NCBI GenBank assembly: GCA_026395755.1
Contig: JAPLYC010000022.1
Location: forward strand, 1 to 38,180
Direction: 5' to 3'
From: Candidatus Parcubacteria bacterium
GTDB lineage: Bacteria; Patescibacteriota; Patescibacteriia; CAIXNZ01
Length of the DNA stretch: 38,180 nt
The notes below the pieces were generated by a model that saw nothing but the letters and a program-made list of their open reading frames with translations, did not search any database and was not told the origin of the DNA. Below are positions 3,643-36,630 of the stretch, piece after piece (positions within the stretch are counted from its first letter, which is position 1; every line of letters starts with the position of its first letter). The translations under genes were made by a program, and so were the position numbers.

Positions 3643-4671
3643 TTATTTTTGTAAAATTTTTACAATACCGCTGTTGGCATCCACTTCAACCATATCACCG
3701 TCTTTGAGAACTTTAGTAGCAATTTTAGTCCCAATAATACAAGGCTTTTTTAATTCACGGGCAACAATAGCGGCGTGGCAGGTAATCCCGCCTTCATCCG
3801 TAATAAACCCGCTAGCTTTTTTTAAAGCCGGTAAATAATCAGGGGTGGTCATGCTTGCCACTAAAATATCACCGTCATTAACCTTATTCAGGTCAACTAG
3901 GCTGGACACTATTTTAACCGGCCCGCTGATTTTTCCTAATTGCGCGCTTTGGCCTTTAAACTCCTTAAGTTCGGGCGACTCTGCTTCATCCTTTTCAAAT
4001 TCAAAATTATATCTATTTTCCAAATCCGCCAAACTTAAGTTGGTCAAAACTTTCCCATTGAGATACACATAGCCTTGTTTTCGCGCGTTAATTTCTGCGG
4101 CAACTATCTGACCGGGATTCATAATTTCCTCAAAAGTTAAAAAATCTACATCTGACTGATGCTCGGGTATTTTCAATTTTGCCAAATCCAGCAAAACATT
4201 AGCTGCTTGATATTCTATTTTATCAGTGCTATGCCTCAAGTCATAAGCCTGTTTGGCGATATTTTTTAATTCAGGGTCATCAACCAATCTGCCCAAGGTA
4301 ACTGAAACAGAAATCATGGGCCAGGCGCTGACAATATTCCTATATATTTTTTCAAAATTACTTACCTCCGGATCTTTGGCTAAAGTTTCAATGGCTGTGA
4401 TGTCATCTTGGTAAGATTTAACCAATGGCGGGAATGATTCCGGCTTTTTGCGAAAATACTCAATCAACGGTTCCAAGTAAGTCTTAGGATTATTCATGTC
4501 ATAATATACATCAACGCCGCCTTTCCCGTTATAAATAAACAAAGGCTCAAAATGCATGGCACCCTCAGTCAGCTTTTCCAGGCCGTCACACTCTCCCAAA
4601 TACCAATACTGCGCCGTCAAAAGCGACATTGACCTTGTAAAAAATTTTTTTAATATTCGTTTTTCAGACAT
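3643..4671 (-). CDS. PEP-synthase-like phosphohistidine (swivel) domain protein A
   Basis: A 342-residue protein starting MSEKRILKKFF. The frame can be extended 42 codons to 4797, but that extension is translated from a REP-like palindrome pair and overlaps the upstream gene, so I take the ATG at 4671. The C-terminal ~110 residues are the mobile phosphohistidine domain with DEGGITCHAAIVAREL; His299 is the carrier. The first ~220 residues resemble the linker or substrate side of split PEP-synthase-like proteins, with aromatic segments such as TAQYWYLGECDGL and a helical middle, but no TIM barrel is present. It lies between the ATP-binding gene and paralogue B in one transcription direction. 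Likely role: carries phosphate from the ATP-binding partner to an unknown acceptor. Only the His domain is firm. Confidence 0.85.
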   Translation of the reverse strand: MSEKRILKKFFTRSMSLLTAQYWYLGECDGLEKLTEGAMHFEPLFIYNGKGGVDVYYDMNNPKTYLEPLIEYFRKKPESFPPLVKSYQDDITAIETLAKDPEVSNFEKIYRNIVSAWPMISVSVTLGRLVDDPELKNIAKQAYDLRHSTDKIEYQAANVLLDLAKLKIPEHQSDVDFLTFEEIMNPGQIVAAEINARKQGYVYLNGKVLTNLSLADLENRYNFEFEKDEAESPELKEFKGQSAQLGKISGPVKIVSSLVDLNKVNDGDILVASMTTPDYLPALKKASGFITDEGGITCHAAIVARELKKPCIIGTKIATKVLKDGDMVEVDANSGIVKILQK

Positions 4672-4680
4672 AAAATTTAA

Positions 4681-4748
4681 TTTGTCATGGTGAGCATAGT
4701 CGAACCATGACCGCTTTGCCACCCTTCGACTAGGCTCAGGATGACAAA
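4681..4748. repeat. REPIN-like pair of inverted REP sequences
   Basis: Two inverted copies of a ~23-nt unit. The first is at 4684-4706 (GTCATGGTGAGCATAGTCGA and on). The second, on the other strand, is at 4722-4745 (GTCATCCTGAGCCTAGTCGA and on). The flanks are TTTGTCAT and ATGACAAA and the spacer is about 15 nt. The unit belongs to the GTCAT...TGAGC...GTCGA palindrome type that is widespread in bacterial intergenic regions. It was inserted between the ATP-binding gene and phosphohistidine protein A, and it creates a spurious upstream extension of the latter. Confidence 0.75.
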
Positions 4749-4751
4749 GGA

Positions 4752-5708
4752 CTACAAAGTAGTTATCGGCCTGCTCTGCACTATAAAAAATTCCCAATTA
4801 CTTAATTTCTTCGTCATGGCCCATTCAATATCGCAGGGGAAGCCATAATGCTTTTCAATCTGAATACAAATTTTAGTCAGTTCAATAATTTGTTCAGCAC
4901 CTAACTTTTGTTTGCCCCGATCATCCTTATCTATTTCAACCCAATGGTTGCCGCCTTCCAGCTTACGCATTATTTTCCTCTCTTGATCAGCAATATTAAC
5001 ATCAATAATTTCCAGATTATCTTTATGGATCACATAAGAATCCGGCGTGATTTGACCGGAAACAATCGCCTCTCCCAGACCATAACCGGCCTCAATTATC
5101 ATCTGGTTCTTATCTTTGGTTACCGGATGAACCGTAAAGCAAATACCTGAAATGTCTGACTGCACCATGGCCTGAATAACCACAGCCACGGAAACTTTAA
5201 TCTGGCGCATACCTTTTTCCATGCGATAAACAATAGCCCGTGGGGTGAACAAAGACGCCCAGCAGCGTTTCACATTGCCCAAAACGTGATCTTTATCAGT
5301 ATTTAAATAACTTTCCAGCTCCCCTGCCCATGATGCAGTGGAAGAATCTTCAGCCGTGGCCGATGAACGCACCGCTACAAATTGAACGCCCAGTTTTTTA
5401 TACTCGCTTAAAATTTCATTTTCCAAATCTTTGGGAAATCTTACGTCATGAATTAAATCACCAATAGTACGTGAAGCCTGATCAACAGAATTTACATCTT
5501 CATAATTTACCTTGTCTAATTGCGCTTCAACTTCCTGAGTCAAATCAGTTTCAGCCAAAAAACGATCAAACGCCTTGGCAGTCACCACAAACCCTGGCGG
5601 CACTGGAATACCGACCCGCGTCATTTCACCCAAAGAAGCACCCTTGCCCCCGGCCAAATGGGTATCATTTTTGCTCAGTTCTTTAAAATTCATGATTAAA
5701 TCAGACAT
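4752..5708 (-). CDS. Free-standing PEP-synthase-type ATP-binding domain protein (PPDK_N)
   Basis: A 318-residue protein equal to only the N-terminal nucleotide-binding domain of PEP synthase or pyruvate phosphate dikinase. Visible motifs are AGGKGASLGEM (Lys22 at the ATP site), AVRSSATAEDSS (Arg114), SGICFTVHPV, EAGYGLGEAIVSGQ and the domain-end motif VQSRPITTL. The protein stops exactly at the usual domain boundary, so the split looks old and functional rather than a random truncation. In the intact family this domain uses ATP to phosphorylate the mobile-domain histidine. Here that histidine must be on one or both downstream proteins. Without a PEP/pyruvate barrel, PEP synthesis cannot be assumed. 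Starts at 5708 (MSDLIMNF) and 5693 are both possible; no clear SD. Confidence 0.92.
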   Translation of the reverse strand: MSDLIMNFKELSKNDTHLAGGKGASLGEMTRVGIPVPPGFVVTAKAFDRFLAETDLTQEVEAQLDKVNYEDVNSVDQASRTIGDLIHDVRFPKDLENEILSEYKKLGVQFVAVRSSATAEDSSTASWAGELESYLNTDKDHVLGNVKRCWASLFTPRAIVYRMEKGMRQIKVSVAVVIQAMVQSDISGICFTVHPVTKDKNQMIIEAGYGLGEAIVSGQITPDSYVIHKDNLEIIDVNIADQERKIMRKLEGGNHWVEIDKDDRGKQKLGAEQIIELTKICIQIEKHYGFPCDIEWAMTKKLSNWEFFIVQSRPITTL

Positions 5709-15390: not shown

Positions 15391-15477
15391 ATTACAGCGG
15401 ACTTTAGTCCGCGTAAGGTCCCCTCGCGCATTGCAGGCTGCATGGGGGCAATTTCGGGGACTAAAGTCCCCTGTAAC
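15391..15477. repeat. REPIN-like inverted pair (CTTTAG core), copy 1
   Basis: Two 16-nt palindromes, GCGGACTTTAGTCCGC (15397-15412) and GGGGACTAAAGTCCCC (15456-15471), stand in opposite orientation. Each is preceded by TTACAG when read outward-in (plus strand for the first, minus strand for the second). The 43-nt spacer has further short self-complementarity. The layout, two REPs inverted around a spacer, is that of a REPIN. It lies between rmlD and rmlA. Confidence 0.75.
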
Positions 15478-22204: not shown

Positions 22205-22888
22205 TTATTTTTCCATTGAGTCAATCAACTCGGGATAATTTAAGCTCGTATATTGCCAATCCTCGGGTAAACCGTGCTTGATATGGTTATAAACCGTATA
22301 ATCGTAATGAAAATCCCAATCCTTTTCCTTCCGCAAGTGATTGTCGTGAAAGCGGATTATATGGTCGTAGAAAGACTTTAACCATTTAAATTTCAGGTAT
22401 AAATTATTTTCACCATATTTTCTTAAAAATTCTTGTTTGTAAAAATCAACGTCAATTTTTTCACAATTCTCATCGGAATTCCCTCCCTTATATACCTGAA
22501 AAGCAGCCGTCCCCCCTCCACGTAAGCGACACGACGTCGTGTCGCTTACGTGGAGGGCGCACCCAACGTGAAAAGGAGAATTTTGCTTAACTGTATACCC
22601 GATTACGATATTGGCATTTCGGGAAAAGTTCTCTTTCAAGGATTTAATTATCTGTGAAAAGTTAAATTCGTTACCTGGCCGTATTATCAAATTTATATGA
22701 TCATAAATTACGGAAAATCCATACAATTTGAACCCTTTTAATTTTTTACAAAGCTTTAAGCTCTCTATGAACAAATCGCAAAAAATCGTCTCCTTAAAAT
22801 ACGGGTAATTATCCTGCGTCTTAATCACGATGTAATAAACCGCGTCGGGAACATATATTCTTTTGGGCGAATTTTTATGTAACCCCAT
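22205..22888 (-). CDS. REP-associated tyrosine transposase (RAYT, IS200-like Y1 family)
   Basis: A 227-residue single-strand DNA transposase/endonuclease relative. The N-terminal pattern (VPDAVYYIVIKTQDNYPYF, then FKLYGFSVIYDHINLIIRPG) is the Y1_Tnp core. The metal-binding motif, usually H-U-H, reads His64-Ile-Asn66. The candidate nucleophile is Tyr174 in KSFYDHIIR, followed by the RAYT-like YNHIKHGLPEDWQY end. RAYTs are usually single-copy domesticated genes that mobilise REP/REPIN palindromes rather than themselves, and REPIN-like pairs lie nearby at 15.4 and 20.4 kb. Oddly, a 44-bp perfect palindrome encodes residues ~111-125 in frame. It starts 6 bp after the RmlC-like gene. Confidence 0.82.
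   Translation of the reverse strand: MGLHKNSPKRIYVPDAVYYIVIKTQDNYPYFKETIFCDLFIESLKLCKKLKGFKLYGFSVIYDHINLIIRPGNEFNFSQIIKSLKENFSRNANIVIGYTVKQNSPFHVGCALHVSDTTSCRLRGGGTAAFQVYKGGNSDENCEKIDVDFYKQEFLRKYGENNLYLKFKWLKSFYDHIIRFHDNHLRKEKDWDFHYDYTVYNHIKHGLPEDWQYTSLNYPELIDSMEK
22514..22557. repeat. Perfect 44-bp palindrome inside the transposase gene
   Basis: Both 22-nt arms match exactly, with the centre between 22535 and 22536 (...ACGAC|GTCGT...) and outer ends CCCTCCACG and CGTGGAGGG. It can form a long cruciform or hairpin with no loop. It keeps the reading frame open and adds a Ser/Thr/Cys/Gly-rich insert (residues ~111-125). Confidence 0.95.
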
Positions 22889-36539: not shown

Positions 36540-36630
36540 CTCGTATATCGTTTTCCGTACAGCGACATACGTTTCGTTAATCGTTTAACGTCTGACGAAA
36601 CGTAACTCGATACCGTAAAACGAAAAACGA
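36540..36630. repeat. Spacer of CGTTTCGTTAATCG-like inverted words
   Basis: ACGTTTCGT (36569-36577) is repeated inverted as ACGAAACGT (36595-36603). The flanks ATCGTTTTCCGTAC and TACCGTAAAACGAAAAACGA are related words. No promoter or terminator is clear. The loop between the arms would be too long for a classic terminator. Confidence 0.55.

Follow-up and report, generated by a model that had tools for sequence, protein, structure and literature searches.

An in-frame palindrome within a Candidatus Parcubacteria RAYT gene is probably the transposase's own double-foot REP

INTRODUCTION

Repetitive extragenic palindromes (REPs) are small mobile palindromes that REP-associated tyrosine transposases (RAYTs) are thought to spread. 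We examined a stretch of DNA of 38,180 nucleotides (nt) from Candidatus Parcubacteria bacterium (contig JAPLYC010000022.1; "the window"), in which a RAYT gene contains, within its reading frame, a perfect palindrome that is probably the cognate REP of the encoded transposase.

In-frame REPs have been described by Quentin et al. (2018, PMC6006769) in tnpAREP genes of subclass 2.4, equivalent to RAYT group 4 of Bertels; these are "double-foot" REPs, whose two ends read GT[AG]G and C[TC]AC. The window case is therefore a Patescibacterial addition to a described phenomenon. As in those subclass 2.4 genes, the window REP lies in frame inside the gene, between the HuH and Y motifs. Compared with that description, the hosts differ (here Patescibacteria, Cloacimonadota and others), and the foot is GTAG or GAAG on a fixed 28-nt palindrome that is usually loopless. 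The subclass 2.4 motifs given there (NH[IFV]H, WQ and YIxNNP) read DHIN, WL and YTVYNH in the window protein, while relatives of this protein range from DHVH to NHFH, mostly have WQ and in some cases have Y-x-x-x-N-P. The gene is a candidate member of subclass 2.4 by REP placement, not by its motifs.

GTAG-tagged intragenic REPs, some translated in frame and some located in DNA repair genes, have also been reported (Di Nocera et al. 2013, PMC3733652). The REPs examined here share the GTAG foot, the palindrome and the presence of some in-frame copies, including copies in DNA repair genes, but differ from those one-end-tagged elements in having a symmetric foot and a copy inside their own transposase gene. 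In the "orthoswitch" model of Nunvar et al. (2013, PMC3686654), orthologous RAYTs are associated with different REP classes, and a RAYT is proposed to favor, in cis, the REPs next to its gene. An initial sequence-only reading of the window had likened its palindrome to the Rickettsia palindromic elements, which are likewise palindromic repeats and, within protein genes, are translated in frame. By their description, those elements are set apart from the present ones, which are paired with a family of cognate transposases and have a GTAG/GAAG double foot of 28 nt, and the double-foot REPs of tnpAREP genes are the better fit.

RESULTS

Positions 22514 to 22557 form a perfect palindrome of 44 bp, CCCTCCACGTAAGCGACACGAC followed by GTCGTGTCGCTTACGTGGAGGG, with two 22-nt arms and no loop, and the arms stretch to 24 nt each with one mismatch. 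The palindrome is in frame within an open reading frame (ORF) of 227 amino acids on the minus strand (22205 to 22888) and codes for approximately residues 111 to 125 (ALHVSDTTSCRLRGG), as the sequence-only reading had stated. None of the shuffled windows had even a 20-nt arm match at 3 mismatches, and the probability of a chance origin is negligible. The parts of the palindrome are as follows.

22514 to 22557, no strand assigned: perfect 44-bp palindrome (22 + 22 nt, without a loop), from arm matching and the shuffled-window control
22522 to 22549, no strand assigned: 28-nt double-foot REP core, GTAAGCGACACGAC followed by GTCGTGTCGCTTAC, pairing at 14/14, from the architecture common to homologous genes and dispersed copies
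22514 to 22521, no strand assigned: symmetric arm extension outside the REP core (CCCTCCAC), by reference to C-rich extensions at dispersed copies
22550 to 22557, no strand assigned: symmetric arm extension outside the REP core (GTGGAGGG), from arm comparison

The genome to which the window belongs, as contig C90, is a metagenome-assembled one (G000) of 1.46 Mb in 120 contigs, with 6.6% contamination. A genome search with the 22-nt arm, which the sequence-only reading had proposed, detected no second site even with up to 3 mismatches allowed, whereas the 28-nt core was found to recur. A relaxed arm match identified a second palindrome at G000:C56 in which both arms were altered alike. The general form, G[T/A]AGGCGA plus six variable bases plus the reverse complement (28 nt), was present at several sites per genome, which is the behavior of a REP. 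Copies with the core CACGAC were located on C56, C63 and C49 of the window genome (the last with one mismatch), and copies with the core CACAAG on C2 and C51. The feet were GTAG...CTAC in dispersed copies, GTAA...TTAC in the window copy and GAAG...CTTC in many homologues. A motif-light search of the portions covered of two partial sister genomes (G020 and G061) detected 27 and 43 G...C 28-mers, respectively, with at least 13/14 pairs; shuffled sequences gave 0.

Similar C-rich symmetric extensions also flanked dispersed copies in the window genome (CCCCAC at C56, for example). At least three symmetric flanking bases were present at 15 of 41 dispersed copies and none at 21 of the 41; in view of this split, we rejected the idea that flank symmetry generally marks an insertion. 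Long, locus-specific symmetric flanks, 19 and 10 bp in length outside the 28-mer, accompanied REPs upstream of two RAYT genes (L066:2241-2306 and L101:2278-2325, respectively). A rule that flank length plus 28 is a multiple of three for in-gene copies was based on informal counts, failed in places and was dropped.

The in-gene copies were then compared with the dispersed copies of the same genome. Among the matches listed for 24 genomes, the in-gene 7-nt core was identical to a dispersed core of its own genome in 17 of 37 cases and within one base of it in 29 of 37. Permutation of genomes gave means of 1.7 and 5.7, respectively, and the observed values were reached in 0 of 5000 permutations, in a test that ignores kinship between genomes and that used dispersed lists compiled by hand from these matches with search patterns of fixed outer bases. 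In three genomes (G000, G001 and G006), two RAYTs with different in-gene REPs occur together, and copies of both REP types are dispersed in each of these genomes. These two-RAYT genomes are the strongest internal control for the cognate match.

Homologues were obtained from a search for relatives and from one GTDB genome scan and came from Patescibacteria, Cloacimonadota, Peregrinibacteria, Spirochaetes and others. The best 28-mer in the region was scored by pairs in the 41 homologous genes that covered it. A perfect loopless 28-nt palindrome (14/14 pairs) was present at the equivalent place in 31 of these 41 genes, which are not independent events since they were picked as relatives of the window protein with a common history. 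Pairing was kept in 563 of 574 cells (41 genes, 14 pairs each), and a single position showed as many as 4 pair types. In other parts of the same genes, the best 28-mer reached only 8 to 12 of 14 pairs. No such palindrome was present in seven outgroup Y1 transposase genes (best 28-mer, 8 to 10 of 14). The sequence of the palindrome varied from gene to gene while the symmetry remained. Three comparisons of the window copy with its closest relatives gave 2, 3 and 2 changed positions, every one of them altered in both arms and none in one arm. Several of the homologous genes were frameshifted or truncated (L086, L088, L090 and L106 among others). The same-place palindromes ruled out an insertion peculiar to the window gene; on this point the sequence-only reading was at least incomplete. 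The counterargument named in that reading, that homologues would carry equivalent residues, held for the position but not for the sequence, the palindrome and not the residues being conserved.

Two further transposase genes carried in-frame palindromes. A more distant RAYT (L159; G061:C4, near 34.3 kb) had a perfect 28-mer, GTAGCTGGGACGACGTCGTCCCAGCTAC, in the equivalent loop, and the orthologous place in G020 had a dispersed REP without a RAYT. A Y1 transposase of a different subfamily in the window genome (L006; G000:C19) had the palindrome GAGGTTCGACCTCCAATTTGGAGGTCGAACCTC at amino acids 65 to 76 of a 243-amino-acid ORF.

For change at dispersed sites, we compared eight REP sites that are orthologous between G020 and G061 and whose flanks align, a small, nonexhaustive set from one species pair in which one site (C23:9490 versus C34) had a single aligned flank. 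A palindrome was present in both species at all eight sites, with 27 two-arm changes versus 6 one-arm changes. At G020:C1:11690, the flanks were 89% and 81% identical while the 28-mer was identical at just 14 of 28 positions, and every change was symmetric; at some orthologous sites, both arms had thus changed far faster than the flanks. A 3-methyladenine DNA glycosylase site and a queG site both had the core AAATGG in G020 and GGATAT in G061, and a one-armed change at a pheT site represented ordinary decay. The sequences suggest that whole REP cores were replaced within a genome, as though exchanged in place. The REPs of the orthoswitch model lie next to the gene, and old ones should remain in place and degrade; in contrast, the dispersed orthologous REPs examined here had changed cores and formed a palindrome in each of the two species. 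No account of joint two-arm change at orthologous sites was found in the REP/RAYT literature compared, the supplement of Quentin et al. aside. Several sites had no REP in one of the sister species, and these empty sites gave no clean insertion footprint. REPs with inserts were present in G061 at L152/L250 (C27, approximately 24.05 kb) and L157 (C52, approximately 25.5 kb), one with a second REP near its center and another with an insert of approximately 190 bp at its center; the G020 counterparts were intact.

The protein encoded by the ORF was examined by profile and fold searches, and the features of its gene are as follows.

22205 to 22888, minus strand: RAYT/TnpAREP gene, 227 amino acids, Y1 transposase family, from Pfam, NCBIfam and fold match
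22472 to 22576, minus strand: codons of residues 105 to 139, a predicted disordered loop with the REP-encoded peptide, from AlphaFold2 confidence values
22691 to 22699, minus strand: HUH-equivalent motif, here H-I-N, residues 64 to 66, from alignments A1 and A2
22286 to 22300, minus strand: Y motif YTVYN, residues 197 to 201, with the presumed catalytic Tyr197, from alignment and analogy

The protein scored just above the cutoff for Pfam Y1_Tnp PF01797 (23.2 bits; cutoff, 23), and its top fold match was PDB 4er8 (E value, 4.7e-7), the complex of a RAYT with a REP hairpin, in keeping with a RAYT-related Y1 transposase fold. Against NCBIfam REP_Tyr_transpos NF047646, it scored 63.1 bits (E value, 2.6e-17), below the cutoff of 80, as did L063 (57 bits), and the homologues L076, L085 and L038 cleared this cutoff with 101, 90 and 87 bits; divergence and the loop insert may account for the low score of the window protein. 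H64 was nearly invariant in the alignments. Like the window protein, the closest relatives and L066 have Asn in place of the second His. Y197 was invariant across 31 aligned sequences, with Asn201 four residues further, and is presumed to be catalytic by its likeness to the YIHYNP motif of TnpAREP (PMC6006769). The AlphaFold2 model had a predicted local distance difference test (pLDDT) value below 50 for residues 105 to 139 and mostly above 90 elsewhere, which places the segment in a predicted disordered surface loop, a point that the sequence-only reading had proposed to check. The HUH helix lies on one side of this loop and the WQ/Tyr region on the other.

Other inverted repeats in the window were of different kinds. 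One, at 4681 to 4748 (TTTGTCATGGTGAGCATAGTCGAA and TTCGACTAGGCTCAGGATGACAAA), belongs to a different repeat family, lies at the start of the ORF at 3643 to 4797 and adjoins the end of a phosphoenolpyruvate synthase-like ORF. Imperfect inverted repeats at 15392 to 15476 and 36563 to 36609 had arms of 32 and 23 nt, respectively.

DISCUSSION

The palindrome at 22514 to 22557 is probably a cognate double-foot REP that lies, in frame, within the very gene encoding its RAYT, because the core of the in-gene copy agrees with copies dispersed in the same genome, paralogue by paralogue. The earlier suggestion of an in-frame mobile palindrome within a gene of the family thought to mobilize palindromes was thus borne out. 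Several points weigh against this interpretation. Exact dispersed matches were missing for several genes (G003, G061, G099 and G104) among the matches listed. REPs were also in frame, with the same codon phase, in pheT, queG and the glycosylase gene, so that an in-gene REP need not be specific to a transposase. The window protein falls short of the NCBIfam RAYT cutoff and has H-I-N for HUH and W-L for WQ; the H-I-N reading makes its activity uncertain, and the window RAYT may be impaired. Mobilization, binding and cleavage by this RAYT are functions that we infer from sequence comparison.

If the palindrome is a cognate REP, the RAYT would bind the in-gene copy as a single-stranded hairpin, like other REPs, and this copy would be the resident, probably cis-preferred member of a mobile REP family, potentially acting as a donor. 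The disordered loop would tolerate the REP-encoded peptide. Arm symmetry would arise from copying or exchange of whole palindromes, either RAYT mediated or by gene conversion, and not from selection on the peptide; template-switch correction possibly helps, but the arms would be kept equal by exchange and not solely by such correction. We tentatively extend this to a model, which we consider possible rather than probable, in which the RAYT gene holds the cis or master REP copy and the REPs of the genome are exchanged in place, with the result that all sites, the in-gene one among them, turn over jointly to a genome-specific core and palindromes remain perfect.

A possible, if doubtful, alternative is that one ancestral REP insertion has persisted as a passive passenger in a permissive loop, its symmetry maintained by quasipalindrome template switching without a role for the transposase. 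The predicted disorder of the loop would make it tolerant, mutations that correct imperfect inverted repeats by template switching are an established class (PMC7202029), and symmetric changes also occurred at REP sites outside RAYT genes. The first base of the 28-mer was at codon position 1 in 36 of the 41 genes, as a single insertion would predict. A common phase does not prove single descent, because the pheT, queG and glycosylase REPs share it and two intact RAYTs use other phases; we therefore rejected it as proof of one ancestral insertion. The agreement between in-gene and dispersed cores of the same genome is left unexplained by a passenger, as is an all-symmetric 14/28 difference between flanks of 81 to 89% identity.

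A cis-regulatory hairpin, in which an mRNA or single-stranded DNA hairpin in the coding region limits transposase expression and is selected for that effect, is improbable. The RNA hairpin of the palindrome is very stable (-48.8 kcal/mol; z, -6.0), and all of the homologues would form one; such stability follows from any perfect palindrome and is therefore not evidence of regulation. Selection for a hairpin predicts neither the mid-gene position nor a genome-specific core and would require the same account for the pheT and queG REPs. Long palindromes assemble poorly and this genome has some contamination, but an assembly artefact or chimera of one metagenome, a concern of the sequence-only reading, can be excluded with near certainty because approximately 40 independently assembled homologues carry equivalent palindromes at the same codon positions, most in open frames.

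The interpretation as a cognate REP bears on how REPs spread and on why the partner REP of a RAYT stays fixed. As the partner REP can be read in the transposase gene itself, sequence alone is enough to name cognate pairs in many uncultured genomes, and genomes with two coresident RAYT-REP pairs provide an internal control for specificity. In-place turnover of both arms, if upheld in a larger sample, would mean that the sequence at a REP site is replaced and the site itself persists, in contrast to the decay of old REPs that the orthoswitch model expects after a switch.
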